Below, piece after piece: positions 12,599-30,667 of a stretch of DNA of 48,341 bases. Every line of letters starts with the position of its first letter. Positions within the stretch are counted from its first letter, which is position 1. The DNA lies in contig JAUNGV010000002.1 of NCBI GenBank assembly GCA_030524225.1, forward strand, positions 44,671 through 93,011, given 5' to 3'. The notes beneath the pieces were generated by a model. It did no database searches. It was given only the letters and a program-made list of their open reading frames with translations, and was not told where the DNA came from. The stretch comes from Eubacteriales bacterium. GTDB taxonomy: Bacteria; Bacillota; Clostridia; Lachnospirales; Lachnospiraceae. Made by a program: the position numbers and the translations under genes.

Positions 12599-12733
12599 GT
12601 GAAAAATAAGCTGACAAGCTTGTTTTTTGTACCGGGATTTGTGCCGGAGCGTCACAAATCCTGATGGTGACAGATGCAGCGCTGAAATTTGCATCGCCCC
12701 GCCACGGGGTACGCGCTCCGGAATGGAGATAGT
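12599..12733 (+). promoter_or_regulatory. Structured 5'-leader element, copy A
   Basis: First of three near-identical elements. P1: GTGAAAAATAAGC (12599-12611) with the T-rich arm 12618-12630. P2: GGATTTGTG (12635-12643) with CACAAATCC (12653-12661), closing the 9-nt loop CCGGAGCGT. P3: GATGCA (12673-12678) with TGCATC (12690-12695). The P2 loop is complementary to CGCTCCGG at 12714-12721, directly before the Shine-Dalgarno GGAG (12725-12728) of the lipoprotein gene. The structure is read from the sequence; a regulatory role is inferred from its position and its repetition at 27255 and 30531. Confidence 0.75.
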
Positions 12734-13363
12734 ATGACGGATAGAAAGAGGCGTCCGGCTCGGAGAGCGGGGGCTGTGGCACTGGCGCTGACGGCTGCGG
12801 TGCTGGCGGGCTGCTCCGGCGGCGGAGGTCTGTCTGACGCACAGGAGAACACGGCGCGCTTCGGGGATGACGGAAGGATAGAAGTCGTGGTGGTGGAGAG
12901 TTTTACCGAGTCGTATTACGATGAGGACGAGCTCTCGCAGCAGATCGAACAGGAACTGGACGCCTACAACAGCGGCGGACAGGCGGTGGAGAACAAAGGG
13001 CTTACGGTCAGCGACGGGACGGCGAGACTGACGCTCTCGTACGTCTCGTCAGACGACTATACGGCGTTTAACGGACAGGAGATGTACTTCGGAACTGTGA
13101 GCGGCGCGCAGGAGGCAGGGTATGAGCTGACGTCCCTACTGAGCGCGGTTTCGACGCAGGATCCGAACAAGATTCTGGCCAGTAAGGATCTGGAGACGCT
13201 GGCGGACAGTCATATTGTGATCGTGACGGAACCGTTCCATATAGAGACGCCCTACGATATTCTCTATGCGTCGGACAATGTGATGATCACGGCGGCCGCG
13301 GAAGCGGATGTGACCGGCGAGGTTTCCGTGCAGGAGCCTGCGATGCTGATTCTGACGCAGTAG
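12734..13363 (+). CDS. Predicted lipoprotein of unknown function
   Basis: A 209-residue secreted lipoprotein. The N-terminus is basic ([12 protein letters not shown]), then hydrophobic, and ends at the lipobox LAGCSG, so the mature protein should be anchored outside the membrane at that Cys. The rest is a soluble domain with [32 protein letters not shown] and [14 protein letters not shown] do not recognise a family. The ATG at 12734 was chosen over an upstream in-frame ATG because GGAGAT precedes it and because the hydrophobic segment then sits correctly. Expression should come from the promoter at 12492 through a structured leader. glyS begins about 100 nt downstream. Confidence 0.8.
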
Positions 13364-13469
13364 AATGCGGCAGAACACAGAAAAAGGGAAAACAGACGGC
13401 AGTCGGCCGGGAACGCGGGCCGGATATGCGCCGTCGTTTATAATGGAAAATAAAAGGAGCGGAACACAA

Positions 13470-14858
13470 ATGGAAAAGACAATGGACAAAATCGTAGCGC
13501 TGGCCAACGCCAGAGGGTTTATCTATCCCGGTTCGCAGATCTACGGCGGTCTGGCAAACACCTGGGATTACGGAAATCTCGGCGTGGAGCTCAAAAATAA
13601 CGTCAAGCGCGCGTGGTGGCAGAAGTTTGTGCAGGAGAGCCCTCACAATGTGGGCGTGGACTGCGCGATCCTGATGAATCCGCAGACATGGGTGGCGAGC
13701 GGGCACTTGAAGAGCTTTTCCGATCCGCTGATGGACTGTAAGGAGTGCGGCGCGCGTTTTCGCGCGGATCAGATGATCGAGGGATATGCGGCGGAGAAAG
13801 GAATCGCGCTGGACGGCTCTGTGGATGCATGGGGCGCGGAGAAGATGATGCAGTTCATCGAGGACAATCAGGTGCCGTGTCCGACCTGTGGTGGCCACCG
13901 TTTTACCGATATCCGCCAGTTCAATCTGATGTTCAAGACCTTCCAGGGCGTCACCGAGGATTCGGCGAATACGATCTATCTGCGTCCCGAGACGGCACAG
14001 GGTATTTTCGTCAATTTCAAAAACGTTCAGAGAACGTCCCGCAAGAAGATTCCCTTCGGTATCTGCCAGGTGGGCAAGTCGTTCCGCAATGAGATCACGC
14101 CGGGCAACTTCACCTTCCGCACGAGAGAGTTCGAGCAGATGGAGATGGAGTTCTTCTGCGAGCCGGATACGGATCTGGAGTGGTTTGCGTACTGGAAAGA
14201 GTACTGCGTGAACTGGCTGACCTCCCTCGGTATGAAGAAGGAGGAGATGAGAATCCGCGACCATGAGAAGGAGGAACTTTCCTTCTATTCCAAGGCGACG
14301 AGCGACATCGAGTTCCTCTTCCCCTTCGGCTGGGGTGAGCTCTGGGGTATCGCCGACCGCACCGACTACGATCTCTCCCGCCATCAGGAGACCTCCGGAG
14401 AGGATCTGAGCTATTTTGACGATGTGAAGAATACGCGGTACATTCCCTACGTCATCGAGCCGTCTCTGGGGGCGGACCGCGTGGTGCTGGCGTTCCTGTG
14501 CGGCGCTTACGACGAGGAGACGCTGGAGGGCGGCGACGTCCGCACGGTTCTGCACTTCCATCCGGCGCTGGCTCCGGTCAAGATCGGCGTTCTGCCGCTC
14601 TCCAAGAAGCTGAACGAAGGTGCGGAGAAGGTCTACGCGGCGCTCTCGAAGAAGTACAACTGCGAGTTCGACGACCGGGGCGCGATCGGCAAGCGGTACC
14701 GCCGTCAGGATGAGATCGGCACGCCGTTCTGCGTCACGTATGATTTTGACTCGGAGACCGACGGCTGCGTGACGATTCGTTTCCGCGATTCGATGGAGCA
14801 GGAGAGAGTGCCGATCGACGGGCTGCTGCAGTGGTTTGAGGGCAGATTTGATTTCTGA
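13470..14858 (+). CDS. glyS: Glycine--tRNA ligase, dimeric (class II) type
   Basis: Single-chain homodimeric glycyl-tRNA synthetase that charges tRNA-Gly; 462 residues, the usual length. The N-terminus with [20 protein letters not shown] is typical. Motif 2 is in [20 protein letters not shown], and motif 3 lies near [16 protein letters not shown] Cys pair (CPTC) and KECG near residues 90-145 suggest the zinc-type insertion seen in this family. The C-terminal anticodon-binding domain begins around VKIGVLPLS. The ATG at 13470 has AAAGGAGC 9 nt upstream; the frame is open further upstream but nothing conserved is there. TATAAT at 13439-13444 has no good -35 partner. No T-box is visible. alaS follows. 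Confidence 0.96.
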
Positions 14859-14876
14859 ATTTGAGTTCTAAGCGGA

Positions 14877-14898
14877 GCAGGCGGGAACCGCCGCCTGC
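14877..14898 (+). other. GC-rich hairpin between glyS and alaS
   Basis: GCAGGCGG (14877-14884) pairs with CCGCCTGC (14891-14898) around a 6-nt loop. It lacks a following T-tract, so termination is uncertain; it may be a processing or stabilising hairpin. Confidence 0.55.
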
Positions 14899-14934
14899 AG
14901 ACGGGCAAGACAAAAGGGAAAGGGAGCAACATCA

Positions 14935-17574
14935 ATGAAAAAATACGGCGTAAATGAACTGCGCTCGATGTTTCTGAACTATTTTGAGAACAAGGGTCAT
15001 CTGAAGATGAAGAGCTTCTCGCTGGTGCCCCACAACGACAACAGCCTGCTCATCATCAATTCCGGCATGGCACCGTTAAAGCCTTATTTTACCGGACAGG
15101 AAATTCCGCCGAGCCGCCGCGTGACGACGTGCCAGAAGTGCATCCGCACAGGCGACATCGAGAACGTGGGCAAGACGGCGCGCCACGGCACCTTCTTTGA
15201 GATGCTGGGCAATTTCTCCTTCGGCGATTATTTCAAGAACGAGTCGATCCCGTGGGCGTGGGAGTTTCTGACCGAGGTGGTGGGACTGGATCCCGACCGC
15301 CTCTATCCGTCGGTCTATGTGGACGACGATGAGGCGTTTCAGATCTGGACGGACAAGATGCACATCGCGCCGGAGCGGATCTTCAAATTCGGCAAGGAGG
15401 ACAACTTCTGGGAACACGGTTCCGGTCCCTGCGGCCCCTGCTCCGAGATCTACTATGACCGGGGCGAGAAGTACGGCTGCGGCAAGCCCGGCTGCACGGT
15501 GGGCTGCGACTGCGACCGCTATATGGAAGTCTGGAATATCGTATTCTCCCAGTTCAACAACGACGGCCACGGCAATTACACGGATCTCGTGCAGAAGAAT
15601 ATCGACACCGGCATGGGACTGGAGCGTCTCGCGGTGGCAGTGCAGGATGTGGAGTCCATGTTCGACATCGACACGATGCGGGCGCTGCGGGACGAGGTCT
15701 GCGCGATTGCACATGTGGAGTATGAGAAGGAACACCGGATCGACGTCTCCGTGCGCGTGATCACCGATCATATCCGCAGCGCGACGTTCATGATTTCTGA
15801 CGGCATCATGCCGAGCAACGAGGGCAGAGGCTATGTGCTGAGACGGATCATCCGCCGTGCGGCGAGACACGGCAGACTGCTCGGCATTGAGGGCGCGTTC
15901 CTGACGAGACTGGCGGACGCTGTCATTGCGGGCAGTAAGGACGGTTATCCGGAGCTGGAGGAGAAGAGAGACTTCATCGTCAACGTAATCGGCGAGGAGG
16001 AGAACAAATTCGCCCGCACCATCGACCAGGGACTGGCGATCCTCGCGGAGATGGAGCAGGAGATGGCCGACAAAGGAGAGAAGCAGCTCTCCGGTGAGAA
16101 TGCGTTCAAGCTCTATGACACCTACGGATTCCCGCTTGATTTAACGAGCGAGATTCTTGAGGAAAAGGGCTTTTCGATCGACGAGGAAGGGTTCAACCGC
16201 GCGATGAAGACACAGCGCGAGACGGCCCGCGCCGCGAGAAAGACCACGAATTACATGGGAGCGGACGCGACGATTTACGAGCAGATTGATCCGGCAATCG
16301 CATCGGCGTTCGACGGCTACGATAAGCTGGAGCGGGACGGAAAGATTCTGGCGCTGACGACGGAGGACGAGGTTGTCGAGGCCCTGACGGACGGCAGCGA
16401 GGGCACGATCATCACCGATGAGACACCTTTCTACGGCACGATGGGCGGACAGGTCGGCGATACCGGCGTGATCGTCTCGAAAGACGGTGAGTTTACTGTG
16501 AAGGAGACGCTTCATCTGGTCGGCGGCAAGATCGGTCACATCGGCGTGATGACGAAGGGAATGATGCGCGTCGGCGATACCGTGACGATGAAGGTGGACG
16601 CACAGCGGCGCGCGGCGATCGCGGCGAACCACTCGGCGACGCACCTGCTGCAGAAGGCGCTGCGCGTCGTGCTCGGCACCCATGTCGAGCAGGCGGGCTC
16701 CTATGTGGATCCCGACAGGCTGCGCTTTGATTTCAGCCACTTCAAACCGATGACGAAGGAGGAACTGGCGGCGGTCGAGAAGCTCGTGAACGAGCAGATC
16801 GCGGCGTCCCTTCCGGTGGTGACGGACGTCACGACGATCGAAGAGGCGAAGAAGAGCGGGGCGATGGCCCTCTTCGGAGAGAAATACGGCGACAGAGTGC
16901 GCGTCGTGAAGATGGGCGATTTCTCGGTGGAGCTCTGCGGCGGTACGCATGTGGCGAATACCGCGAAGGTCGGATCCTTCAAGATCATCGGTGAGAACGG
17001 CGTCGCGGCGGGTGTGCGCCGGATCGAGGCGCTGACCGGAGAAGGTCTGCGGCGCTATTACGAGCAGCTGGAGCAGACTGCGCAGGAAGCGGCGGCCCTC
17101 GTGAAAGCGACACCGGTAACGCTCTGCGAGCATATCAGGAAGCTGCAGGAAGAGCTGCGCGCGGTCAGGGCGGAGAACGAATCCTTAAAGAGCAAGGAAG
17201 CCAAGGAGGCGCTCGGCGATGTGACGAGTCAGGCGGTGGACGTCAAGGGCGTTCCGTTCGTGGCGGCGTCAGTGGCCGGCGTGGATATGAACGGTCTGCG
17301 GGACCTCGGCGATCAGTGCCGGAACAAGCTGCCGGGCAGCGTGATTCTCCTGATTTCCGAGAAGGATGGCAGGGTGAACCTGATGGCGATGGCCTCCGAC
17401 GAGGCGGTCACGAAGGGAGCCCACGCGGGCAATCTCGTCAAGGCGATCGCACCGGCAGTCGGCGGTGGCGGAGGCGGCCGTCCGAACATGGCGCAGGCCG
17501 GAGGCAAGAATCCGGCGGGTATCCCGGACGCGCTGGCACAGGCGGCGGCGGCGCTGGAGAGCCAGCTGCACTGA
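14935..17574 (+). CDS. alaS: Alanine--tRNA ligase
   Basis: Class II alanyl-tRNA synthetase of 879 residues, full length. The catalytic domain begins with the LRSMFLNYFENKGH region and contains RVTTCQKCIRTGDIENVG. The editing domain has the zinc-binding HSATHLL and CGGTHV motifs that remove misacylated Ser or Gly. The C-terminal C-Ala domain ends in a glycine-rich GGGGGGRPNMAQAGG segment, the usual tail. AAAGGGAGC precedes the ATG. With glyS upstream it forms a small aminoacylation cluster; rpsU follows under its own promoter. The cognate tRNA-Ala(CGC) is encoded about 9 kb upstream. Identification is certain. Confidence 0.98.
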   Translation: MKKYGVNELRSMFLNYFENKGHLKMKSFSLVPHNDNSLLIINSGMAPLKPYFTGQEIPPSRRVTTCQKCIRTGDIENVGKTARHGTFFEMLGNFSFGDYFKNESIPWAWEFLTEVVGLDPDRLYPSVYVDDDEAFQIWTDKMHIAPERIFKFGKEDNFWEHGSGPCGPCSEIYYDRGEKYGCGKPGCTVGCDCDRYMEVWNIVFSQFNNDGHGNYTDLVQKNIDTGMGLERLAVAVQDVESMFDIDTMRALRDEVCAIAHVEYEKEHRIDVSVRVITDHIRSATFMISDGIMPSNEGRGYVLRRIIRRAARHGRLLGIEGAFLTRLADAVIAGSKDGYPELEEKRDFIVNVIGEEENKFARTIDQGLAILAEMEQEMADKGEKQLSGENAFKLYDTYGFPLDLTSEILEEKGFSIDEEGFNRAMKTQRETARAARKTTNYMGADATIYEQIDPAIASAFDGYDKLERDGKILALTTEDEVVEALTDGSEGTIITDETPFYGTMGGQVGDTGVIVSKDGEFTVKETLHLVGGKIGHIGVMTKGMMRVGDTVTMKVDAQRRAAIAANHSATHLLQKALRVVLGTHVEQAGSYVDPDRLRFDFSHFKPMTKEELAAVEKLVNEQIAASLPVVTDVTTIEEAKKSGAMALFGEKYGDRVRVVKMGDFSVELCGGTHVANTAKVGSFKIIGENGVAAGVRRIEALTGEGLRRYYEQLEQTAQEAAALVKATPVTLCEHIRKLQEELRAVRAENESLKSKEAKEALGDVTSQAVDVKGVPFVAASVAGVDMNGLRDLGDQCRNKLPGSVILLISEKDGRVNLMAMASDEAVTKGAHAGNLVKAIAPAVGGGGGGRPNMAQAGGKNPAGIPDALAQAAAALESQLH

Positions 17575-17627
17575 TTCTCGCGGCAGGACGGCGGAGAGGT
17601 CCGATTTGCGTCTGCCATGCGCTTCGA

Positions 17628-17687
17628 CCGCGAAGCGGCGAAGAGCGCGGCAGCGAGGCCCCTCGAATGGCGCGGGCTGAACTGCTA
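17628..17687 (+). repeat. 60-bp dispersed repeat, copy X
   Basis: This 60-nt block matches 20878-20937 without gaps and with about nine mismatches by eye. The shared ends are CCGCGAAGCGGCG and GAATGGCGCGGGCTGAACTG. It lies between alaS and the rpsU promoter. A hairpin CGCTTCG/CGAAGCG (17620-17637) overlaps its left edge. Its right edge is 29 nt before the -35 box of rpsU. Confidence 0.8.
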
Positions 17688-17716
17688 TGCCGGACGGGAC
17701 TTTCGCAATAAATTTC

Positions 17717-17744
17717 TTGACGGGCGGAAAAAGTGTGGTATAAT
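17717..17744 (+). promoter_or_regulatory. Sigma-A promoter for rpsU
   Basis: TTGACG (17717-17722) and TATAAT (17739-17744) with a 16-nt spacer, about 80 nt before the rpsU start codon. Confidence 0.85.
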
Positions 17745-17826
17745 AACTCATGTGTGCAGCCGACTGCACCGAAAAAAACCCAATCAGTCATGTTCTGAAG
17801 GGACTGAAGGGAGGGTGAGAGAGCAG

Positions 17827-18003
17827 ATGTCAAACGTAATCGTAAAAGAAAACGAGACTTTGGACAGCGCCCTGCGTCGTTTTAAGAGAAGCTGCGCGAA
17901 GGCGGGAATCCAACAGGAAATTCGTAAAAGAGAGCATTACGAGAAGCCAAGTGTAAGACGCAAGAAAAAGTCTGAAGCGGCTAGAAAGCGTAAATACAAC
18001 TAA
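17827..18003 (+). CDS. rpsU: 30S ribosomal protein S21
   Basis: A 58-residue basic ribosomal protein of the small subunit that helps translation initiation. The S21 pattern is complete: a short beta start with [20 protein letters not shown], then the helix with [20 protein letters not shown] and a Lys/Arg tail ([15 protein letters not shown]). The ATG at 17827 follows GGGAGGG about 10 nt upstream; the frame is open further upstream but this is the standard S21 start. It is transcribed from the promoter at 17717 and ends in a strong terminator, so it is a single-gene unit. Confidence 0.98.
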
Positions 18004-18027
18004 GCTGACGTAAGCGTGAAAGTGATG

Positions 18028-18058
18028 AAAAGCCCTTGGTTTTTACCAAGGGCTTTTT
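18028..18058 (+). terminator. Intrinsic terminator after rpsU
   Basis: AAAAGCCCTTGGT (18028-18040) pairs with ACCAAGGGCTTTT (18045-18057) around a TTTT loop, followed by T residues. The stem is 13 bp and perfect. Confidence 0.93.
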
Positions 18059-18087
18059 CCGTGGAACCTCAAAGGGAAGGAGAGAGT

Positions 18088-19266
18088 ATGACGTATGTGA
18101 TCTGGGCAATCGGAATCCTGTGTGCGGCGGCTCTCCTCGTGCTCGCCGTGATGATTGCGGACAACCACCGCTTTGTGGTGCGGCACTATGAGGTCGCTTC
18201 TGACAGGGCGGACCGCTCCTATACGTTTGCTTTTATCACAGATCTGCACGCCAAGGTGTACGGCAAGGGGAATGAGAGCATCCTGCGGGCGATCCGCGAG
18301 ATTTCGCCGGACGCTGTGCTCTTTGGCGGCGACCTGATCGTCGCGGCGCAGGCCGGAGAGGAGGGGGACGGCTGGATGAAGACGGCCCTTGCTCTGCTGC
18401 GGGATGTCAGCGAAGAGTTTCCTGTCTTCTATGTCAACGGGAACCATGAGTTAAAGCTGGATGAGCACTGGTGGAAGGAGACGGGAGGAACAGGGAAGAG
18501 CGACGGGGATTCTGAGGCGGCGTGGCGCCGGCGCAGAGCGTTTGCGGGCGCTTATGAGAGGCTGGACCGGGCGCTGGCACAGATCGGCGTGCGGCCGGTG
18601 CGCAATAAAAGATTCCGTTTTTCCGGAGAGAAGGGCGCGGCGGCCTTTGCGCCGCTGCCGCTGCTGGGAGAGTTCCCGGACACGGAAGCGGCAAAAACGG
18701 CAATGGGCGGCGCGCGCGTGAAAACGGAGCCGGACTCCCGCGGTGCATTGGCGGACACAGAAGCGGAGCAGTCAGCGGACGGGACAGGCCGCGCTGGCAC
18801 CTATGACGCGCCCGGGATCGACGTGTTTGGGCTGGAGCTTCCGGCTCACTTCTATACGAAGTTTCAGAGCGAGACGCTCAGCGTGGAGGAGATTGACGCC
18901 CTGATCGGCCGTCCTGATCCGGCCCGCTTTACCGTGCTCGTGACGCATACGCCGAAGTATTTCGAGGCGTATGCGGCGTGGGGAGCGGATCTCGTGCTCT
19001 GCGGCCATGTTCACGGGGGAATCGCGCGTCTTCCGTTTGTGGGAGGCGTGCTCTCTCCGTACCCGACTCTGTTTCCGAAGTACAGCGGAGGCCACTATGA
19101 ACTGCCAGGAGGCAGGCGGGAGAGCGCAGGGACAGAAGCGGCGGACGCGGGGAAAGAGCCGCGCAGTGTGCTGGTGCTCAGCTGCGGCATGGGGATGCAC
19201 ACGCTGCCGGTGCGCTGTTTTAACCCGGCGGAGCTGTCCGTGATCACGATCAAACCGCAGCAGTGA
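18088..19266 (+). CDS. Membrane-anchored metallophosphoesterase (YkuE/YaeI-like)
   Basis: A calcineurin-like phosphoesterase of 392 residues. One N-terminal transmembrane segment (about residues 5-27) precedes the metal-binding motifs: ITDLHAKVYG (block I, Asp-x-His), FGGDLI (block II), VNGNHE (block III), VTHTPKYFE and CGHVHGG (blocks IV and V), in the normal order. An insert of roughly 60 residues between about 181 and 245, rich in Ala, Gly, Glu and Asp, interrupts the fold where relatives have a short loop. The ATG at 18088 follows AAGGAGAG; an upstream start would run through the rpsU terminator. Its substrate cannot be read from the sequence; related proteins act on lipids or cell-wall intermediates. 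Confidence 0.87.
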   Translation: MTYVIWAIGILCAAALLVLAVMIADNHRFVVRHYEVASDRADRSYTFAFITDLHAKVYGKGNESILRAIREISPDAVLFGGDLIVAAQAGEEGDGWMKTALALLRDVSEEFPVFYVNGNHELKLDEHWWKETGGTGKSDGDSEAAWRRRRAFAGAYERLDRALAQIGVRPVRNKRFRFSGEKGAAAFAPLPLLGEFPDTEAAKTAMGGARVKTEPDSRGALADTEAEQSADGTGRAGTYDAPGIDVFGLELPAHFYTKFQSETLSVEEIDALIGRPDPARFTVLVTHTPKYFEAYAAWGADLVLCGHVHGGIARLPFVGGVLSPYPTLFPKYSGGHYELPGGRRESAGTEAADAGKEPRSVLVLSCGMGMHTLPVRCFNPAELSVITIKPQQ

Positions 19267-19286
19267 TCTGCGGAAGGGAAGGAAAA

Positions 19287-19353
19287 GTGCGGAATCCATG
19301 CCCGATAGCATGAATTCCACACGCGAGCCGGAGCTGTAAACGTCTCCGGCTCG
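19287..19353 (+). other. Two consecutive hairpins before scpA
   Basis: 19287-19301 pairs with 19308-19322 (13 of 15 positions), then CGAGCCGGAG (19324-19333) pairs perfectly with CTCCGGCTCG (19344-19353). Neither is followed by a T-tract. They may be weak terminators or mRNA-processing structures between the phosphoesterase and scpA. Confidence 0.55.
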
Positions 19354-19372
19354 GGAGTGCAGGGAGGAAACC

Positions 19373-20122
19373 ATGGCGATTCCGGTAAAGCTGCAGGTGT
19401 TTGAGGGACCTCTGGATCTCCTCCTGCATCTGATTGACATCAATAAAATCGACATTTATGACATTCCGATTGTGGAGATCACCGAGCAGTATATGGAGTA
19501 CATCCGCCAGATGGGAGAGCAGGATATGAACGTGATGAGCGAGTTCCTGCTGATGGCGGCGACGCTTCTTGATATCAAGAGCAGGATGCTCCTGCCCAAG
19601 GAGGTCAACGAGGAGGGCGAGGAGGAGGATCCGCGGGCGGAACTGGTGGAGAAACTCCTTGAGTACAAGATGTACAAATACATGTCCTACGAGCTGCGGG
19701 ATCGGGAATTCGGGGCGGCCGTCCACTTTTACAGGGACAGGCTCCTGCCAGAGGAGGTCGAGCGGTACGAACCGCCGATCGATTACGCCGAGCTGATCGG
19801 GGCGAACACGCTGCAGACGCTGAATGAGATTTTCCAGCAGATCTTAAAGCGGCAGCAGGATAAAGTGGATCCGGTCCGCAGCACCTTCGGCACCATCGAG
19901 AAGGACGAAGTGGACATGGACGGCAAGATGGTTTACGTCCGCGATTACCTGCGGGGACACAGAAGGATCGGGTTCCGCGCCCTGCTGGAGAAACAGGGCA
20001 GCAAGGAAGAGGTGATCGTCACGTTTCTGGTCGTTCTGGAGATGATGAAAACGGGAGAGATCACGCTGTATCAGACCGAGACCTTCGGTGAAATCACGAT
20101 TGAAAAGAGGGATGATTCTTAA
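19373..20122 (+). CDS. scpA: Segregation and condensation protein A
   Basis: The kleisin subunit of the SMC-ScpA-ScpB condensin that compacts and resolves the chromosome. 249 residues. The N-terminal SMC-binding region shows FEGPLDLLLHLIDINKIDIYDIPI, the family signature, here split as FEGPLDLLLHLI followed by DINKIDIYDIPI. The middle has LLMAATLLDIKSRMLLP, and the C-terminal winged helix includes ITLYQTETFGEITI. GGAGGAAACC precedes the ATG. The stop codon shares one base with the scpB start, so the two subunits are translationally coupled. Confidence 0.96.
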   Translation: MAIPVKLQVFEGPLDLLLHLIDINKIDIYDIPIVEITEQYMEYIRQMGEQDMNVMSEFLLMAATLLDIKSRMLLPKEVNEEGEEEDPRAELVEKLLEYKMYKYMSYELRDREFGAAVHFYRDRLLPEEVERYEPPIDYAELIGANTLQTLNEIFQQILKRQQDKVDPVRSTFGTIEKDEVDMDGKMVYVRDYLRGHRRIGFRALLEKQGSKEEVIVTFLVVLEMMKTGEITLYQTETFGEITIEKRDDS

Positions 20123-20775: not shown

Positions 20776-20776
20776 A

Positions 20777-20937
20777 AACAGTTCAGCCAGCCGGAAGTAA
20801 GAGGTACAAATCGTGCTCGCACGAATTTATACCTCTTACTTCCGGCTGAGGGAGCGCCCGATCATGAGCAAAGGCAGCCGCGAAGCGGCGGAGAGCGCGG
20901 AAGCGCGACTTTGCGAATGGCGCGGGCTGAACTGTTA
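20777..20937 (+). repeat. Inverted-repeat element containing repeat copy Y
   Basis: The outer arms AACAGTTCAGCC (20777-20788) and GGCTGAACTGTT (20925-20936) are a perfect 12-bp inverted repeat. Directly inside the left arm lies a nearly perfect hairpin of about 28 bp (20789-20816 with 20819-20847; ends AGCCGG/CCGGCT). The right half contains the 60-bp repeat copy Y (20878-20937) shared with 17628-17687. The element begins two bases after the scpB stop and ends just before an AT-rich promoter region. It could terminate scpAB transcription by structure, or be a small non-autonomous mobile element; no transposase is present. Confidence 0.8.
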
Positions 20938-20969
20938 CCAATATCTAATGGCTCTATTAAATTTTTCTA

Positions 20970-20996
20970 TTGTTTTTAAAAATTTTATGCTATACT
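20970..20996 (+). promoter_or_regulatory. Probable promoter of the decarboxylase operon
   Basis: TATACT (20991-20996) lies in a very AT-rich tract; the best -35 candidate, TTGTTT (20970-20975), is only 15 nt upstream, so the assignment of that box is weak. The leader would be about 80 nt. Confidence 0.45.
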
Positions 20997-21061
20997 TTTT
21001 AATGGCGCTAATTGCGGGTTTTTCTTCCGGCGGGAGAAAAGCCTGTTGCATAATTAGTACA

Positions 21062-21083
21062 TTTTAGAGATGGAGGTCTAAAA
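21062..21083 (+). promoter_or_regulatory. Hairpin presenting the Shine-Dalgarno site in its loop
   Basis: TTTTAGA (21062-21068) pairs with TCTAAAA (21077-21083) around GATGGAGG, so the GGAGG site of the operon's first gene sits in an 8-nt loop. The stem ends one base before the ATG. The stem is AT-only except one pair, hence temperature- or factor-sensitive if it forms. Confidence 0.6.
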
Positions 21084-21084
21084 T

Positions 21085-22506: not shown

Positions 22507-22518
22507 AGGAGACACAAC

Positions 22519-23256: not shown

Positions 23257-23287
23257 TACAGTAAAAGAATACAGAGGAGGATTCATC

Positions 23288-23680
23288 ATGAAGAACTATA
23301 CCATTACCGTGAATGGCACCGCATATGACGTTACCGTGGAAGAGACCGGCGCAGGCGCACCGGCGGCAGCGGCTCCGGCAGCTCCCAAGGCTCCGGCGAA
23401 GGCTCCTGCAGCGGCTCCGAAGGCAGCAGCTCCGGCGGCTCCCAAGGCTTCCGCAGGCGCGGCAGGCAGTGTTAAGATTGAGGCAGGCGCTGCGGGCAAG
23501 GTCTTTAAGATCGAGACGAAGGTCGGCGATGCTGTAAAGGCAGGAGATCCGGTTATCATTATCGAAGCGATGAAAATGGAAATCCCGATGGTCGCTCCCA
23601 AGGACGGCGTTGTTGCAAGCATCGACTGCGCGGTAGGCGATGCGGTCGAGGCGGGTACCGTGCTTGCTACCCTCAACTAA
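23288..23680 (+). CDS. Biotin carboxyl carrier subunit
   Basis: A 130-residue biotinyl domain protein that shuttles the carboxyl group between the carboxyltransferases and the membrane beta subunit. The start MKNYTITVNGTAYDVTVEE resembles decarboxylase gamma chains. An Ala/Pro/Lys linker of about 45 residues follows, then the lipoyl/biotinyl fold with EAMKMEIP; the biotinylated Lys is residue 96. The ATG at 23288 follows GAGGAGG; the longer upstream frame overlaps the previous gene and was rejected. The flexible linker is standard for swinging carriers. No biotin ligase or biotin carboxylase gene is in the window. Confidence 0.93.
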   Translation: MKNYTITVNGTAYDVTVEETGAGAPAAAAPAAPKAPAKAPAAAPKAAAPAAPKASAGAAGSVKIEAGAAGKVFKIETKVGDAVKAGDPVIIIEAMKMEIPMVAPKDGVVASIDCAVGDAVEAGTVLATLN

Positions 23681-23710
23681 TCGCAACAACGGAACCAGGA
23701 GGTCTACGTT

Positions 23711-24859
23711 ATGTCTTATATTTTAGATACATTGAACGGAATCGTGCATCAGACCGCGTTCCTGAGCCTGACCTGGGGCAACTACCTGATGATTGCTGTG
23801 GCTTGCGTTTTCCTGTATCTGGCAATTGCCAAGGGATTCGAGCCGCTGCTGCTCGTGCCGATCGCATTCGGCATGCTGCTCGTCAATATCTACCCCGATA
23901 TCATGTTGAGCATCGAGGATTCCTCGAACGGAACCGGCGGTCTTCTGTACTATTTCTACTTACTGGATGAATGGGCGATCCTGCCGTCCCTGATCTTCAT
24001 GGGCGTCGGGGCGATGACGGACTTCGGTCCGCTGATCGCCAATCCGAAGAGCTTTCTGCTCGGCGCAGCGGCGCAGTTCGGTATTTTCGCCGCATACTTC
24101 GGAGCGATTGCTCTTGGCTTCAACGGACAGGCGGCGGCGTCCATCGCCATCATCGGCGGTGCGGACGGCCCGACGTCCATCTTCCTGGCCAGCAAGCTCG
24201 GACAGATGGATCTGCTCGGCCCGATCGCCGTGGCGGCGTATTCCTATATGTCGCTCGTTCCGATCATTCAGCCGCCGATCATGAAGGCACTGACCACCAA
24301 GAAAGAGCGCATGATCAAGATGGATCAGCTGCGCCCGGTTTCCAAGCTTGAGAAGATCCTGTTCCCGATCGTCGTTACGATGGTCGTCTGCATGATCCTT
24401 CCGACGACGGCTCCGCTTGTCGGCATGCTGATGCTCGGCAACCTCTTCCGTGAGTGCGGCGTGGTTCGTCAGCTGACGGATACCGCGTCCAACGCGCTGA
24501 TGTACATCGTCGTCATTCTGCTCGGCACCTCGGTCGGTGCGAACACGAGCGCGGAGGCGTTCCTGAATGCCGATACATTAAAGATCGTGGCGCTCGGTCT
24601 GATTGCCTTTGCCTTCGGTACGGCGGCCGGCGTTCTCTTCGGCAAGCTGATGTGCGCGCTGTCGCACGGCAAGATCAATCCGCTGATCGGCTCTGCGGGC
24701 GTGTCCGCGGTTCCGATGGCTGCCCGGGTTTCCCAGAAGGTGGGCGCGCAGGAGGATCCGTCGAATTTCCTGCTGATGCACGCTATGGGCCCGAACGTGG
24801 CGGGCGTTATCGGCACGGCAGTCGTGGCCGGCGTATTCATGGCGGTGTTCGGCGTCTGA
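23711..24859 (+). CDS. oadB: Na+-translocating decarboxylase beta subunit
   Basis: A polytopic membrane protein of 382 residues that decarboxylates carboxybiotin and pumps Na+ outward. The diagnostic region [17 protein letters not shown], with the Asp needed for Na+ coupling, is near residue 155; [14 protein letters not shown] and the C-terminal [20 protein letters not shown] and [13 protein letters not shown] segments are also present. About nine to eleven hydrophobic helices can be counted. AGGAGG precedes the ATG. In the operon it follows the carrier, the normal order. OadB, MmdB and GcdB are close homologues, so the symbol refers to the family rather than to a proven oxaloacetate specificity. 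Confidence 0.93.
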
Positions 24860-24870
24860 TCACGACAAAC

Positions 24871-24907
24871 GCGGCGGGATGCGGCGCTCTGCCGTCTCTG
24901 CCGCCGC
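24871..24907 (+). other. GC-rich hairpin between oadB and the PycB/OadA-like gene
   Basis: GCGGCGG (24871-24877) pairs with CCGCCGC (24901-24907), with a short inner helix GCGGC/GCCGT. No T-tract follows. It may tune the relative amounts of the last operon gene. Confidence 0.5.
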
Positions 24908-24940
24908 GGATAACCTTACAGGTAGGAAGGAGTTTAGTTT

Positions 24941-26356
24941 ATGTCAGAACAACAGGTGAAAAAGCCTATTAAAATTACAGAAACTGTTCTGCGCGACGCG
25001 CATCAGTCCCTGATTGCGACCAGAATGCCCACCGAGCTGATGCTGCCGATCGCCGGCAAGATGGATCAGGTTGGATATCAGGCCGTGGAGTGCTGGGGCG
25101 GCGCGACGTTCGACGCATGCCTGCGTTTCTTAAAGGAAGATCCGTGGGAGAGACTCAGAAAATTAAGAGCGGAGTTCAAGAATACGAAGCTGCAGATGCT
25201 GTTCCGCGGCCAGAATATCCTGGGCTACCGTCACTATGCGGATGACGTGGTGGAGTACTTCGTACAGAAGTCCATCGCAAACGGTATCGATATCATCCGT
25301 ATTTTCGACTGCCTGAACGATCTGCGTAACCTCGAGTGCTCGGTCAAGGCCTGCAAGAAGGAAGGCGGCCACGCGCAGGTAGCCCTCAGCTACACGCTGG
25401 GCGACGCGTATACCGAGGATTACTGGATGAGCATCTCCAAGGAAATCGAGAGCATGGGCGCGGATTCGATCTGCATCAAGGATATGGCCGGCCTGCTCGT
25501 GCCGTATGAGGCGGACCGCCTGATCCGCGCGATGAAGTCCGCGACGGATCTGCCGATCGAGCTGCATACCCACTACACCTCCGGTGTGGCGAGCATGACC
25601 TACTTAAAGGCTGTCGAGGCGGGCGTTGATATTCTCGACTGCGCCATCAGCCCCTTCGCGCTGGGAACCTCTCAGCCGGCGACCGAGGTTATGGTGGAGA
25701 CCTTCCGCGGTACCCAGTACGACAGCGGACTCGATCAGAAACTTCTGGCGGAGATCGCGGATTATTTCCGTCCGTACAGAGAAGAGTGCTTAAAGAGCGG
25801 CCTCATGGATCCGAAGGTACTGGGCGTCAACATCAAGACCCTGATGTACCAGGTTCCGGGCGGTATGCTCTCCAACATGGTGAGCCAGCTGAAGGAGCAG
25901 AACGCGAGCGACAAGTACAACGACGTTCTGGAAGAGATTCCGAGAGTCCGTCAGGATCTCGGCGAGCCGCCGCTGGTTACGCCGTCGTCCCAGATCGTCG
26001 GCACGCAGGCCGTGATGAACGTCCTGCTCGGCGAGCGCTACAAGGTGGCGACCGACCAGACCAAGGATCTGCTCTCCGGCAAGTACGGCAAGACCATCAA
26101 GCCGTTTAACAAGGAAGTGCAGAAGAAGGTCATCGGCGACACGGAAGTGATCACCTGCCGTCCGGCAGATCTGATCCCGAACGAGCTCGCGAAGATCGAG
26201 TCCGAGATGGCACAGTGGAAGCAGCAGGATGAGGACGTTCTGTCCTACGCGCTGTTCCCGCAGGTCGCTGTGGATTTCTTCAAATATCGTCTGGCACAGC
26301 AGGAGAAGGTGGATCTGACCAAGGCGGACGCAAAGACCGGAAGCTATCCTGTCTAG
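24941..26356 (+). CDS. oadA: Oxaloacetate decarboxylase alpha / pyruvate carboxylase B carboxyltransferase domain (5S-like)
   Basis: A 471-residue DRE-TIM carboxyltransferase that exchanges a carboxyl group between oxaloacetate/pyruvate and carrier biotin. The start TETVLRDAHQSLIATR is the family hallmark; metal-binding LHTHYTSGVASM and the ECWGGATFDACLRFL region are present, and GGMLSNMVSQL begins the conserved carboxylase part. The C-terminal biotin domain found in OadA of Klebsiella is missing, so it must use the separate carrier encoded at 23288. It therefore resembles the 5S subunit of propionibacterial transcarboxylase. AAGGAGTTT precedes the ATG. Last gene of the operon, followed by a terminator. 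Confidence 0.92.
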   Translation: MSEQQVKKPIKITETVLRDAHQSLIATRMPTELMLPIAGKMDQVGYQAVECWGGATFDACLRFLKEDPWERLRKLRAEFKNTKLQMLFRGQNILGYRHYADDVVEYFVQKSIANGIDIIRIFDCLNDLRNLECSVKACKKEGGHAQVALSYTLGDAYTEDYWMSISKEIESMGADSICIKDMAGLLVPYEADRLIRAMKSATDLPIELHTHYTSGVASMTYLKAVEAGVDILDCAISPFALGTSQPATEVMVETFRGTQYDSGLDQKLLAEIADYFRPYREECLKSGLMDPKVLGVNIKTLMYQVPGGMLSNMVSQLKEQNASDKYNDVLEEIPRVRQDLGEPPLVTPSSQIVGTQAVMNVLLGERYKVATDQTKDLLSGKYGKTIKPFNKEVQKKVIGDTEVITCRPADLIPNELAKIESEMAQWKQQDEDVLSYALFPQVAVDFFKYRLAQQEKVDLTKADAKTGSYPV

Positions 26357-26379
26357 CAATAAACTTTATAAGCAGTAGG

Positions 26380-26417
26380 AATCGCGCGGGGGCGAAAGTT
26401 TCCGCGCGATTTTTTTC
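26380..26417 (+). terminator. Intrinsic terminator of the decarboxylase operon
   Basis: AATCGCGCGG (26380-26389) pairs with CCGCGCGATT (26402-26411), followed by seven T residues. Confidence 0.92.
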
Positions 26418-26471
26418 ACCGTTTTTTCACGAATTCCCATGGGGAAAGGGGTTTCGGGACAGGCGCGCTTT

Positions 26472-26480
26472 TGATAAAAT
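26472..26480 (+). promoter_or_regulatory. Possible extended -10 promoter for the two-component system
   Basis: TGATAAAAT has the TG-n-TAAAAT form of an extended -10 box about 100 nt before the response-regulator start. No convincing -35 box lies at the proper distance. Confidence 0.4.
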
Positions 26481-26577
26481 GAACTGTACATGAGGCGGAG
26501 CGGGGGCAGGAAGCTGGCGGAGAGAGGATTCGCGGAACAAACGCGGAGAGGAGATTCGCGGAAAGGAAAGGCGCGGG

Positions 26578-27258
26578 ATGGAACAGCGGAAAATATTGGT
26601 GGTGGACGACGAGAGCCGGATGCGCAAGCTCGTCAGGGACTTTCTGGTGAAGAGTGATTTTCAGGTTCTGGAGGCGGAGAACGGCGTACAGGCGATTGAT
26701 GTTTTCTTTGCCCAGAAGGATATTGCTCTGATTATTCTGGACGTGATGATGCCGGAGATGGACGGCTGGCAGGTGTGCCGGGAGATCCGGGCGTATTCCA
26801 AAGTGCCGATCGTCATGCTGACGGCCAAGTCGGACGAGCGCGACGAGCTGCAGGGCTTTGATCTGGGCATCGACGAGTATGTCACGAAGCCGTTTTCTCC
26901 CAAGACGCTGGTGGCGAGGGTCGAGGCGATTCTGCGCCGGACGAACCAGGAGGGAGAGAGCGAGCGGCTGGAGTCCAGCGGGATTGTTGTCGATCAGACG
27001 GCGCACAGCGTGACGATTGACGGCAGGCCGGTGGAACTGAGCTACAAAGAGTTTGAACTGCTCACCTATTTCATGCAGAACAAGGGAATCGCTCTGTCCC
27101 GGGAGAAGATCCTGAACAATGTCTGGAACTACGACTATTTCGGAGATGCGCGGACGATCGACACTCATGTGAAGAAGCTGCGGAGCAAGATGGGAGAGCG
27201 CGGCGAGTGCATCAAGACGATCTGGGGAATGGGATACAAATTTGAAGAGGTAATGTGA
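26578..27258 (+). CDS. OmpR/PhoB-family response regulator
   Basis: A 226-residue transcription factor. The receiver domain has the acidic pair DD at 10-11, the phosphoacceptor Asp55 in ILDVMMPEMDG, Thr in VMLTAKSDE, and Lys in YVTKPFSP. The C-terminal winged helix of OmpR type is recognisable from LSYKEFELLTYFMQNKG, NVWNYDYFGDARTIDTHVKKLR and the terminal IWGMGYKFEE. It is paired with the histidine kinase downstream. GGAAAGG precedes the ATG. Its stop codon lies inside the first stem of structured element B, so ribosomes finishing this gene would run into that element. Signal and target genes are unknown. Confidence 0.95.
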   Translation: MEQRKILVVDDESRMRKLVRDFLVKSDFQVLEAENGVQAIDVFFAQKDIALIILDVMMPEMDGWQVCREIRAYSKVPIVMLTAKSDERDELQGFDLGIDEYVTKPFSPKTLVARVEAILRRTNQEGESERLESSGIVVDQTAHSVTIDGRPVELSYKEFELLTYFMQNKGIALSREKILNNVWNYDYFGDARTIDTHVKKLRSKMGERGECIKTIWGMGYKFEEVM

Positions 27259-27388
27259 AAAATAAGCCTGATCGCTTATTTTTCACACCGAGTTTTGTGC
27301 CGGAGCGTCACAAAGCTCGTAAATGGCAGACGCAAATTTGACATTTGCGTCGCCCCGTCGCGCAAAGCGCTCCGGAACGGAGATTAAT
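27255..27388 (+). promoter_or_regulatory. Structured 5'-leader element, copy B
   Basis: P1: GTGAAAAATAAGC (27255-27267) with GCTTATTTTTCAC (27274-27286), perfect 13 bp. P2: CGAGTTTTGTG (27289-27299) with CACAAAGCTCG (27309-27319), closing the loop CCGGAGCGT. P3: GACGCAAAT (27329-27337) with ATTTGCGTC (27343-27351). The P2 loop is complementary to CGCTCCGG beginning at 27368, just before the kinase Shine-Dalgarno GGAG (27379-27382). The P1 left arm includes the stop codon of the response regulator. Confidence 0.78.
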
Positions 27389-29098
27389 ATGCGGAGGGAT
27401 ACGGAGAGGCGGGCGCGCCGGAAATCATTCCATCACTCGATACGGGCGCAGTTTGCGGCCGTATTTTTCCTGTTGGTGCTGGGGACGATTCTGCTGTGCC
27501 TGATCCTGAACAATTTATTTCTGGGGACCTATTATCAGAATGAAAAGCAGAGGATTTTCCTGAGCGCCTATGAGAGGCTCCAGCAGGCGGCGCAGGAGGA
27601 GGCGATCACCTCTGATTCGTTTGATGTGGAACTGATCCAGCTGACCAATACGTACAATATCGGTGTGATCGTAATGGACAGTAATTCCAAGACGCTCAAG
27701 TGCTACGCGACGGATCCGCTCGAGATGTCGAGACGGCTGTGGGAGAATCTGTTCGGAACGACGCCGTCTATCGAGGAGATACAGGGCGGAGGAACCGGGG
27801 AGACCCGGAGCGACGGCGGGACGGAGACGACGTCTGCGGAAAGCAGCGGCTCACAGGAGGAGGCAGAGGAAGATTCGCAGCCGGAGGAACAGCCGGGAGG
27901 GGATCTTCCGGACAGCGGAGATACCGTGCTGCTGCACACAATCAAGACGGACGGAGAATATGAGCTGCAGATCGTGCTCGACCGGAGAACCTCGACGGAG
28001 TATATGGAAATGTGGGGATTCCTTTCCAATGGGGATCTCTTTCTGATCCGCGCGGCGTTGGAGAGCATCCGCAACAGCGTGACGATCACGAACCGTTTCC
28101 TGCTCTACACCGGTATGGCGGCGGCCCTGTGCGGCACGGCGGTGGCGCTCTGGATTGCGGGACGCCTGACGCGCCCGATCCGTGAGATGGCGGTGATCTC
28201 CGACCGGATGAAACACCTTGACTTCAATGCCAAATATTCCGGAAAGGGGAAAAATGAGCTCGGAGAGCTGGGAGCGAATATCAACGAACTGTCCGAAGCG
28301 CTGGAGGAGACGATTTCCGAACTGAAAACGGCGAACAACGAGCTGCGTCAGGACATTGAGAAAAAAGAGCAGATCGATGAGATGCGCAAGGAATTTCTCT
28401 CCAATGTGTCCCATGAACTGAAGACGCCGATCGCTCTGATTCAGGGCTATGCGGAGGGACTGCAGGACTGTATCAACGACGACGCGGAGAGCCGGGAGTT
28501 CTACTGCAGCGTAATCATCGATGAGTCTGCGAAGATGAACAACATGGTCAAAAAGCTGATGACGCTGAATCAGCTTGAATTCGGGAATGAGACGGTCACC
28601 ATGGAGCGGTTCGACATTGTGGATGTGATCCGCAATTACCTGAGCTCCGCGGCGCTTCTGGCGCAGAAACAGGAGGTCACGGTGCGGATGGAACAGGAAG
28701 CGCCGGTTTACGTCTGGGCCGATGAGTTTTTTGCGGAGGAAGTCTTTACGAATTACTACAGCAACGCCCTCCATCACGTTTCCGGCGATAAAGTAGTTGA
28801 CATTCGCTTTGAACAGAAGGAAAATTGTGTACGGATCAGCGTCTTCAATACGGGACGGCCGATTCCGGCGGAAAGTCTGCCGCATCTGTGGGAGAAGTTC
28901 TACAAGGTGGACAAGGCGAGGACGAGAGAGTACGGAGGTTCCGGAATCGGACTCTCGATTGTCAAGGCGATTATGGACACGCTGCATCAGAGTTATGGTG
29001 TGATCAATTACGACAATGGCGTGGAGTTCTGGTTCGAACTGGATACCGGATCGGGACTCGGCACGGAGAATGGGGGCATAGATGGTAGCCATTATTGA
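27389..29098 (+). CDS. Membrane sensor histidine kinase
   Basis: A 569-residue kinase. A basic start is followed by a transmembrane helix at about 22-45, an extracytoplasmic sensor region to about 235, a second helix (about 235-256) and a HAMP domain beginning near GRLTRPIREMAVI. The HisKA phosphoacceptor is His342 in SNVSHELKTPIALIQGY; the ATPase domain has YYSNALHHV as its N box, LWEKFYKVDKAR and GGSGIGLSIVKAI as the G box. The sensor region contains an acidic low-complexity stretch (about 133-178) rich in Glu, Gly and Ser. The ATG at 27389 follows the GGAGAT of element B. Its end overlaps hisH by 17 nt. Stimulus is not deducible. Confidence 0.93.
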   Translation: MRRDTERRARRKSFHHSIRAQFAAVFFLLVLGTILLCLILNNLFLGTYYQNEKQRIFLSAYERLQQAAQEEAITSDSFDVELIQLTNTYNIGVIVMDSNSKTLKCYATDPLEMSRRLWENLFGTTPSIEEIQGGGTGETRSDGGTETTSAESSGSQEEAEEDSQPEEQPGGDLPDSGDTVLLHTIKTDGEYELQIVLDRRTSTEYMEMWGFLSNGDLFLIRAALESIRNSVTITNRFLLYTGMAAALCGTAVALWIAGRLTRPIREMAVISDRMKHLDFNAKYSGKGKNELGELGANINELSEALEETISELKTANNELRQDIEKKEQIDEMRKEFLSNVSHELKTPIALIQGYAEGLQDCINDDAESREFYCSVIIDESAKMNNMVKKLMTLNQLEFGNETVTMERFDIVDVIRNYLSSAALLAQKQEVTVRMEQEAPVYVWADEFFAEEVFTNYYSNALHHVSGDKVVDIRFEQKENCVRISVFNTGRPIPAESLPHLWEKFYKVDKARTREYGGSGIGLSIVKAIMDTLHQSYGVINYDNGVEFWFELDTGSGLGTENGGIDGSHY

Positions 29099-29705
29099 TT
29101 ATGATGCGGGCAATATCAGAAGCGTGGAGAACGCGATGACTATGCTCGGAAAGGAGACTGTGCTGACGCGGGACCCCGGGGTAATCCGGAGAGCGGACCA
29201 TGTGATCCTGCCGGGCGTCGGATCCTTCGGAGACGCGATGGACAGAATCCGCAGATACGGGCTGGAAGAGGTGATTCGCGAGGTGGTACAGAGCGATACG
29301 CCTTTTCTGGGAATCTGTCTGGGACTGCAGCTCCTCTTTGAGGAGAGCGAGGAGAGTCCGGGGGTGAAGGGACTGTCTGTGTTGCGGGGGAAGATCAGGA
29401 GGATCCCCGCAGGGACGGAACCGGAGACGGGAACTCTCCGCAAAATTCCGCAGATCGGGTGGAACAACCTTGCGTTCCCGAGGCAGGGCAGGCTGTTCCG
29501 GGACATTGAAGAGGGGGCGTATGTGTACTTCGTACACTCCTATTATCTGCAGGCGGAGAGCAAGGAGATTGTCACGGCGACGACGCAGTACGGCGTGACG
29601 GTAGAGGCATCGGTGGAGCGGAACAATGTGTTTGCCTGCCAGTTCCATCCGGAAAAAAGCGCGGAGGTTGGACTGCAGATTCTGACCAATTTCCTGCAGG
29701 TGTGA
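29082..29705 (+). CDS. hisH: Imidazole glycerol phosphate synthase, glutaminase subunit
   Basis: A class I glutamine amidotransferase of 207 residues that supplies ammonia to HisF in histidine biosynthesis. The N-terminus [17 protein letters not shown] is typical. The nucleophile Cys79 sits in [13 protein letters not shown], and the His-Glu of the triad are in QFHPEKS near the C-terminus. The ATG at 29082 is followed at once by the conserved sequence and overlaps the kinase gene by 17 nt in another frame, suggesting translational coupling. hisF follows after 33 nt. The other his genes are not in this window. Confidence 0.96.
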
Positions 29706-29738
29706 CGGAAAGCGAGAAAAGCAAAAGAGAGGGATGCC

Positions 29739-30515
29739 ATGCTGACGAAGCGGATAATTCCCTGCCTCGATGTGAACAACGGGCGGGTGGTCAAAGGAAT
29801 TAATTTTGTCAATTTAAAGGACGCGGGAGATCCGGTGGAGACCGGCGAGGCGTACTCGAAGGCGGGAGCGGACGAACTCGTCTTTCTGGATATCACGGCG
29901 ACAAGCGATGCGCGGGCGACGGTGGCCGACATGGTGCGGCGCGTGGCGGAGCGGGTATTTATTCCGTTTACGGTGGGCGGAGGAATCCGCACGGTCGAGG
30001 ATATGCGGGCGATTCTGCGCGAGGGCGCGGACAAAACCGCGGTCAATTCTGCGGCGCTGCTGCGGCCAGAGCTGATCGCTGAGGGCGCGGAGAAATTCGG
30101 CAGTCAGTGCGTGGTCGTCGCGATGGACGCCAGACGGCGCAGGAATGAGGACGGAACTTTCGCGGAGGGCTGGACGGTTTACCGCAGCGGCGGGAGGATC
30201 GACACGGGGCTGGACGCGATCGAGTGGGCGAGAAAGGCGGAGACCCTCGGCGCGGGGGAGATTCTTCTGACGAGCATGGACTGTGACGGCACGAAGAACG
30301 GATACGATCTGGAACTGACGAGAGCGGTGGCAGAGACGGTGCGGATTCCGGTGATCGCCTCCGGCGGCGCGGGAAAGACGGAGCATTTCTTCGAGGCACT
30401 GACACAGGGCGGCGCGGATGCGGCGCTGGCGGCGTCCCTCTTCCATTACAAGGAACTGGAGATCCGCGAGGTCAAGGAGTATCTGCACGAGAAGGGTGTT
30501 CCGGTGAGACTTTAG
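29739..30515 (+). CDS. hisF: Imidazole glycerol phosphate synthase, cyclase subunit
   Basis: A 258-residue TIM-barrel enzyme that forms imidazole glycerol phosphate and AICAR with ammonia from HisH. The start [18 protein letters not shown] contains catalytic Asp11; the second catalytic residue Asp130 is in VVVAMDARR. Phosphate-binding segments VGGGIRT and [10 protein letters not shown] are present, and the protein ends in the usual VPVRL. GAGAGGGATG-type spacing precedes the ATG. It forms a pair with hisH. Structured element C begins 16 nt after its stop. Confidence 0.97.
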
Positions 30516-30530
30516 GAGAATGGAGGATAG

Positions 30531-30667
30531 ATTGAAAAATGAGCTTGATAGCTTATTTTTCAATCCCGGGATTTGTGCTGGAGCGTTACAAATCCCGCTG
30601 ATGGCAGACGCAAATCTGAAATTTGCGTCGTCCCGTCGCGCGAGGACGCTCCGGAATGGAGATTATT
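30531..30667 (+). promoter_or_regulatory. Structured 5'-leader element, copy C
   Basis: P1: ATTGAAAAATGAGC (30531-30544) with GCTTATTTTTCAAT (30551-30564). P2: CGGGATTTGTG (30567-30577) with TACAAATCCCG (30587-30597), loop CTGGAGCGT. P3: GACGCAAAT (30607-30615) with ATTTGCGTC (30621-30629). The loop pairs with ACGCTCCGG (30646-30654), just before the Shine-Dalgarno GGAG (30658-30661) of the dipeptidase. Compared with copies A and B, base changes in P1, P2 and the loop helix keep pairing, including G-U exchanges. Confidence 0.78.

Follow-up and report, generated by a model that had tools for sequence, protein, structure and literature searches.

In translational riboswitches and in S15-type leaders, a pseudoknot formed beside the Shine-Dalgarno sequence (SD) can free or close that site, and such leaders serve one gene or pathway and carry conserved sites for a ligand or protein. 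A second point of comparison is provided by small dispersed repeats. In the portions of the literature available to us, the BOX elements of Streptococcus pneumoniae are described as having terminal inverted repeats (PMC3049150), and YPAL/RU-2 as having inverted repeats that are internal, not terminal, variable-sized target duplications, and both filled and empty sites (PMC2229807). Here we describe an element present in three copies in a 48,341-nucleotide stretch of DNA from a member of the Lachnospiraceae (hereafter, the window; positions 44,671 to 93,011 of contig JAUNGV010000002.1). The three copies belong to a large family of dispersed RNA-forming repeats of about 132 nt. The repeat appears to be a dispersing element, not described before, that settles at translation starts; it is probably a non-autonomous RNA element that sits between an SD and the start codon and keeps the gene translatable through a carried or duplicated SD.

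The size of the family was assessed in the source genome (G000; an assembly of 2.9 Mb in 127 contigs, 80.9% complete, with the window a part of contig C1) using a covariance model, R1, made from an alignment of 32 of its copies. R1 returned at least 142 matches at E ≤ 1e-3, a few of them partial (150 of 1878 candidates scored), and a blastn search with copy 3 of the window returned at least 62 matching pieces (40 of 199 candidates scored); these and all other family-size counts are lower bounds. Beyond this genome, R1 matches at least 15 of 24 congeners (1 to 38 matches in each when filtered more strictly) and at least 29 of 200 genomes of the family (one per genus, source genome included, 16 candidates scored each). 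One of 16 genomes from the order's other families is matched, and in a class-wide sample the source genome alone (at least 1 of 291; 11 candidates scored per genome). A 21-base pattern for the P2 core occurs in at least 118 stretches of named genomes. Among the 80 listed, most titles name Lachnospiraceae (Acetatifactor, Eisenbergiella, Roseburia, Lachnospira and unnamed members), and some belong to loosely named metagenome-assembled genomes (Clostridium, Clostridiales, Eubacteriales, Bacillus, "bacterium"). One copy of congener G014 (L234), compared by eye, is letter for letter the L310 copy of an uncultured Lachnospiraceae bacterium; this agreement, which comes from relatives, supports the assignment of the DNA to the Lachnospiraceae. 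A phage origin was rejected after this one exact pattern gave no match in viral contigs.

An earlier note on this DNA had located the three window copies, and the R1 coordinates agree with it to within a few bases (Table 1). The order it gave, namely hairpin P1, hairpin P2 with the loop C[CT]GGAGCGT, hairpin P3, CGCTCCGG, GGAG and the ATG, recurs in all three. Its description of the copies as near-identical was too strong, since identities to copy 1 of 73% (copy 2) and 69% (copy 3) over 112 ungapped bases make them clearly related and no more than that. The stretch CGCTCCGG, hereafter the tail, is the exact reverse complement of the P2 loop core CCGGAGCG, a relation absent from the note. Each copy folds better than all 200 dinucleotide shuffles of itself (z −3.6, −5.9 and −5.9). 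Folded without constraints, copies 1 and 3 reach their minimum energy with P2 open and the loop paired to the tail. No Rfam 15 family reaches its gathering threshold in the window except for one tRNA, and none does so at the copies; relaxing the thresholds assigned the element to no family either. As to the genes named downstream, Pfam matches identify the histidine kinase (27389–29095) and the peptidase, as M20 (30668–32134), while the putative lipoprotein (12734–13360) has a lipobox-like LAGC and no Pfam match. Copies 2 and 3 lie inside probable operons, as copy 2 starts in the last codons of the response regulator gene and copy 3 is placed between the hisF-like and M20 genes.

The position of the element was evaluated in 71 of the 142 source-genome matches, which were read individually. 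The test required an open reading frame (ORF) of at least 60 codons starting 3–11 nt after the GGAG on the element's own strand, and 65 of the 71 copies passed it, compared with 20% success at control places 250–900 nt upstream. The spacing is 6 nt in 33 copies, 7 nt in 18, 5 nt in 7 and other values in 7, so that 58 of 65 fall at 5–7 nt. Seven of 46 G000 copies were not used in the start and flank counts: four have the tail beyond an inserted module, one is at a contig end, one contains Ns and one has no recognisable start. A 430-kb sample of the same genome, window included, was used for scans of tail motifs and repeats. It holds 53 tail motifs (≤2 mismatches), 47 of which precede an ORF of at least 60 codons; for 20 of the 53, the patterns used detected no P1, P2 or P3 nearby, although diverged hairpins may have escaped them. 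In the named genomes, 77 of 113 matches were used, the others being opposite-strand hairpin matches, matches below about 40 bits or matches at contig ends. Such an ORF follows 63 of these 77 copies, within a range of −6 to +24 nt that may also count the tail's own in-frame ATG, and 5 of the remainder are near a contig end. The congener set comprises 48 of 60 matches, all 12 of those dropped being weak matches on the opposite strand.

The genes that follow the element share no pathway, as had been said of the three in the window. Of 20 downstream proteins scanned, 19 have Pfam matches, and these are to unrelated families, among them carbohydrate enzymes, apiosidase, GH43, GH127, GH2, homoserine succinyltransferase, an AraC regulator, ribosomal protein L9, UvrC, polyprenyl synthase, signal peptidase, an ABC permease, histidine kinase and M20 peptidase. 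The ORF at L010:1636–2223 has about 48 residues ahead of its L9 domain, and the true L9 start may therefore lie downstream.

The RNA consists of three hairpins and a pseudoknot that joins the P2 loop to the tail just 5' of the SD. In the 32-copy alignment the four helices (P1, P2, P3 and P2-loop/tail) comprise 46 pairs, 96.1% of cells are standard-paired, and 11 pairs have changed on both sides. None of 500 shuffles was as good, and sliding the partners by one base reduces pairing to 41–46%; as related copies are not independent, all structure statistics are best taken as guides. The strongest test of the structure comes from comparing subfamilies. In 48 copies from other genomes, where helix sequences differ by lineage, a change in the P2 loop goes with a change in the tail: CCGGAGCGT occurs with ACGCTCCGG, TCGAAGCGC with GCGCTTCGA, GCCGGAGC with GCTCCGGC, and GCCTGAGC with GCTCAGGT. 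Complementarity summed over these copies reaches 341.9, compared with 282.0 ± 7.8 when tails are swapped among copies (0 of 300). A minority of the copies from other genomes have little loop-tail complementarity, several of them array units in G008, G010 and G018. Cells of the 32-copy alignment that are not Watson-Crick pairs are G-U in 37 cases versus A-C in 17 (19 versus 5 in the pseudoknot alone), an excess that points to an RNA of the gene strand. The earlier note had proposed a covariance-model search with such an outcome in view, that is, many genomic matches lying at ORF starts, with compensatory changes, here found in both the stems and the pseudoknot.

Folding estimates for 52 of the 54 source-genome copies with P1 put the mean probability that the second SD, at the element end, is unpaired at 0.33 with P2 formed and a free tail, versus 0.56 with loop and tail taken up by each other. 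The increase exceeds 0.2 in 27 of the 52 copies. The pseudoknot could thereby act as an opener, and it may control the exposure of this SD.

Comparison of orthologous gene starts provides what appears to be the clearest evidence of mobility. At the junction between the hisF-like and M20 peptidase genes the element is present in the source genome, and no R1 match was found in 29 congener peptidase loci (48–56% protein identity); in some of these (L157, L160) an upstream stop is followed directly by an SD and ATG. One ABC-ATPase start is filled in G024, with the 9-nt ACAGGGAGG on both sides, and empty in G003, G013, G049, G076 and G007, which have just an SD, spacer and start codon. A single isochorismatase-family start is seen in four states: a bare SD and ATG in G007, a full element in G003, a different short hairpin with tail in G024, and a P1-like hairpin alone between two SDs in G013. 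One further copy is present in one and absent from the other of G003 and G013, at a flank identity of 92–95%, and at the pyrG start both G007 and G024 carry a copy.

These comparisons also bear on the choice left by the earlier note, which had offered two possibilities, a cis-acting RNA family and a mobile repeat that forms RNA and inserts at start codons. Its suggestion is supported, and the presence and absence of the element at orthologous starts favours the mobile repeat. Vertically inherited cis-regulatory leaders of one regulon, riboswitch-like or protein-responsive and multiplied by ordinary duplication, would have the conserved fold, the covarying pseudoknot, the fixed start spacing and the SD that is predicted to be sequesterable. 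Such leaders would not be expected at starts that sister species keep without the element, before 20 scanned genes with no common pathway, or with helix sequences specific to the lineage; nor is a strongly conserved unpaired core of aptamer type apparent by eye. We therefore consider this explanation distinctly unlikely.

Upstream of the element there is commonly another SD-like motif, a feature absent from the earlier note. It lies within 12 nt of 45 of the 54 source-genome copies with P1, against a background of 18%. For copies with an SD-like anchor upstream (51 of 54 in the source genome, 48 of 75 in the named genomes and 25 of 48 in the congeners), the 7-mers on either side of the element were tested for identity. 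In each set the element most often begins at a distance of 7 from the first base of the upstream GGAG (28/51, 19/48 and 13/25). Identical 7-mers were found in 8 of 38 source-genome copies versus 1.9 expected (0/2000), in 6 of 31 versus 2.0 in named genomes, and in 4 of 19 versus 0.9 in congeners; over the 54 source-genome copies, flank duplication amounts to 326 against 290.8 ± 6.0 (0/1000). The support for target duplication is thus statistical. Together with size, modular build, lineage-specific expansion and the filled and empty sites in relatives, this signal is what one would expect of a classical miniature inverted-repeat transposable element of a DNA transposon (BOX, RUP or Correia-like). 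The 32-copy alignment, however, contains no terminal inverted repeats (5' end AGATTGAAAAAT, 3' end CGGAATGGAG), and most copies read occupy the gap from SD to start codon in the gene's own orientation, so that an element of this class is unlikely.

An NTG follows the upstream SD region inside P1 in 42 of 54 copies by one pattern and in 49 by a looser one. Its pairing within P1 would render the upstream SD unproductive. Alternatively, the upstream SD and a 5' NTG-AAA-AAT could begin a short peptide whose translation is coupled to that of the gene. The NTG is rightly spaced from the motif that precedes 45 of the 54 copies, and the frame stays open past the gene start in 21 of 42; yet the first pattern detects no NTG in 12 of 54 copies (the looser one in 5 of 54), and the frame shifts after P1 between two P1 subtypes, which means that the peptide is not conserved beyond about 10 residues. 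Such a coding leader is very improbable, and a peptide-coding reading of the element as a whole was rejected for want of a conserved frame.

A non-autonomous dispersing element could act as follows. The element of about 132 nt would settle in the gap that separates an upstream SD-like sequence from the start codon, in the sense direction of the gene, and its transcript would form a structured leader. A new SD at the normal spacing of 5–7 nt would be carried by the element or arise through a target duplication of about 7 nt (GGAGNNN), and the gene would stay translatable because the 3' end of the element supplies this SD. P1 may bury the first NTG after the upstream SD. With the tail paired to the P2 loop just 5' of the new SD, that site would be freer; with the tail unpaired, its CUCC could pair with GGAG and close it.

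Several observations weigh against this reading. Six of the 71 copies lack an ORF of at least 60 codons (three precede shorter ORFs and three none), the copy at C51:6306–6420 has no start codon in the 40 nt read, and copy L064 of G003 precedes only a very short reading frame. The upstream SD-like motif is found in only 38 of 75 copies in named genomes, 22 of 48 in congeners and 7 of 17 source-genome copies in which P1 is missing or altered. Thirty of 38 source-genome copies have no identical flank 7-mer, and in copies from other genomes the likeness at positions 6 and 7, each taken singly, is not significant (p 0.07–0.46); the duplication may thus be partial or may reflect shared SD preferences. 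The G003/G013 pair shows no clean target duplication, and single filled and empty pairs may reflect loss rather than gain. G-U cells do not exceed A-C cells in P3 (4 versus 5) or in P1 of 125 copies from other genomes (9 versus 9). The proposed SD switch is a matter of folding estimates, in which the pseudoknot makes the SD less open in 4 of 52 copies and has little effect on it in 21. Lastly, the source genome, which has the most copies and is 80.9% complete, contains no match to the Y1 transposase (PF01797) or to reverse transcriptase (PF00078), and no larger autonomous relative was found in the 430-kb sample, where halves without partners were inspected and DDE transposases were not searched for.

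Over 26 genomes, the Y1 transposase is found in 19, with a rank correlation to element matches of 0.12 (p 0.55), and reverse transcriptase is matched in 7, of which 6 are over the cut-off (rank correlation 0.04, p 0.86). An IS200/IS605-derived element (PATE, REP) and a retroelement (group II or SINE-like) were both rejected on the lack of correlation and the absence of the corresponding enzyme from G000. Membership of the TD-2 RNA family (RF03162) was likewise rejected: it gave a sub-threshold match to copy 3, on the minus strand (34.9 bits versus a gathering threshold of 48.7), and was not found in copy 1 (E up to 5) or in 13 other loci (E up to 0.5). Control by CsrA was considered for its motif, GGA in the P2 loop and the SD, and the GAA loops of several subfamilies speak against it. 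It is conceivable, if doubtful, that the element represents a new mobile class that recognises ribosome-binding sites. It would insert immediately 3' of an SD, perhaps guided by its own anti-SD CUCC, duplicate the SD and thereby keep the host gene on, and spread as folded RNA or single strand, with the pseudoknot needed for movement.

Table 1. Features of the element copies and of a solo tail-like motif in the window.
Feature	Position	Strand	Basis and context
Copy 1 (P1-P2-P3-tail)	12596..12728	+	R1 match C1:57266-57398; before ORF at 12734 with lipobox-like N-terminus
P2 loop CCGGAGCGT, copy 1	12644..12652	+	Read in sequence; pairing counted in 32-copy alignment
Tail CGCTCCGG, copy 1 (pseudoknot strand, complementary to own P2 loop)	12714..12721	+	Sequence; 32-copy alignment
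Element-end SD GGAG, copy 1	12725..12728	+	ATG at 12734
Copy 2	27252..27382	+	R1 match C1:71922-72052; 5' end holds stop codon of response regulator ORF 26578-27258
P2 loop CCGGAGCGT, copy 2	27300..27308	+	Sequence
Tail CGCTCCGG, copy 2	27368..27375	+	Sequence
Element-end SD GGAG, copy 2	27379..27382	+	ATG at 27389 (histidine kinase)
SD-like GGAGGAT directly 5' of copy 3	30522..30528	+	Sequence
Copy 3	30529..30661	+	R1 match C1:75199-75331; between stop of hisF-like histidine-biosynthesis ORF and M20 peptidase start
P1 hairpin, copy 3	30530..30565	+	Fold; helix 1 of 32-copy alignment
P2 loop CTGGAGCGT, copy 3	30578..30586	+	Sequence; helix 3 of 32-copy alignment
P3 hairpin, copy 3	30603..30632	+	Fold; helix 4 of 32-copy alignment
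Tail CGCTCCGG, copy 3	30647..30654	+	Sequence; 32-copy alignment
Element-end SD GGAG, copy 3	30658..30661	+	ATG at 30668
Solo tail-like motif GCTCCGGCATGGAG	38655..38668	+	6 nt 5' of ORF start; P1-P3 not found by patterns used

The element is modular. Variant copies in the source genome are without P1, have an extra hairpin after P2 or carry a module inserted in P3, and all keep the tail and SD; units stand next to one another in rows in G007, G008, G010, G014 and G018. At L010, L022, L028 and L029 the element is preceded by a short hairpin of CCGCAGC-AA-GCTGCGG type and then by ATGGAGG or a similar sequence, as if another short SD-associated hairpin family had preceded these copies. At L023:1501–1632 (minus strand) an extra hairpin (GTAACAGG...CCTGTTAC) follows the tail at the expected start codon, possibly as a later insertion.

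A second repeat family, with the core GAATGGCGCGGGCTGAACTG, occurs in the window at 17628–17687 and 20878–20937 and is not tied to start codons. Its core has 12 matches (≤4 mismatches) in the 430-kb sample, a few perhaps by chance, and it is once nested within a copy of the element (C57:8100–8287). Directly 5' of its first occurrence, and just 3' of the stop of ORF 14935–17574, is a 43-nt P3-like piece (17576–17618, minus strand) that is 79% complementary to copy 3. The second occurrence has 5' of it a long hairpin (20789–20850; GCCGGAAGTAAGAGGTA... / ...TACCTCTTACTTCCGGC) that looks near-perfect by eye.

If the element is indeed a dispersing RNA that settles at gene starts, then the translation starts of well over 100 genes of one gut bacterium, and of many in its relatives, would have been rebuilt by it. 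Its example would make clear how the most sensitive part of a gene can accept a repeat and not be silenced. It would also offer a natural collection of structured leaders that can be interchanged, and would pose the question of what machinery recognises ribosome-binding sites. The element affects the annotation of start codons in the genomes that carry it.

No description of such an element was found in the open literature by title or start of abstract, and a description outside it is possible. In the main text of a paper on structured RNAs from human microbiomes, as far as it was available (PMC8040213), the terms Lachnospiraceae, start codon, Shine-Dalgarno, pseudoknot and mobile are all absent; its list may hold this RNA unnamed. 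Unlike riboswitches and S15-type leaders, the element serves unrelated genes and its helices are lineage-specific. With BOX it shares a short, modular build, many dispersed copies, a predicted RNA fold and the ability to lie within transcripts, but BOX has terminal inverted repeats, and the portion of its description at hand mentions no tie to the gap between SD and start codon and no loop-tail pseudoknot (PMC3049150). YPAL/RU-2, as far as its description was accessible, resembles the element in being a small mobile bacterial repeat with filled and empty sites and target duplications; its targets, however, span or adjoin dyad symmetries in intergenic DNA, whereas those of the element are the starts of genes (PMC2229807).

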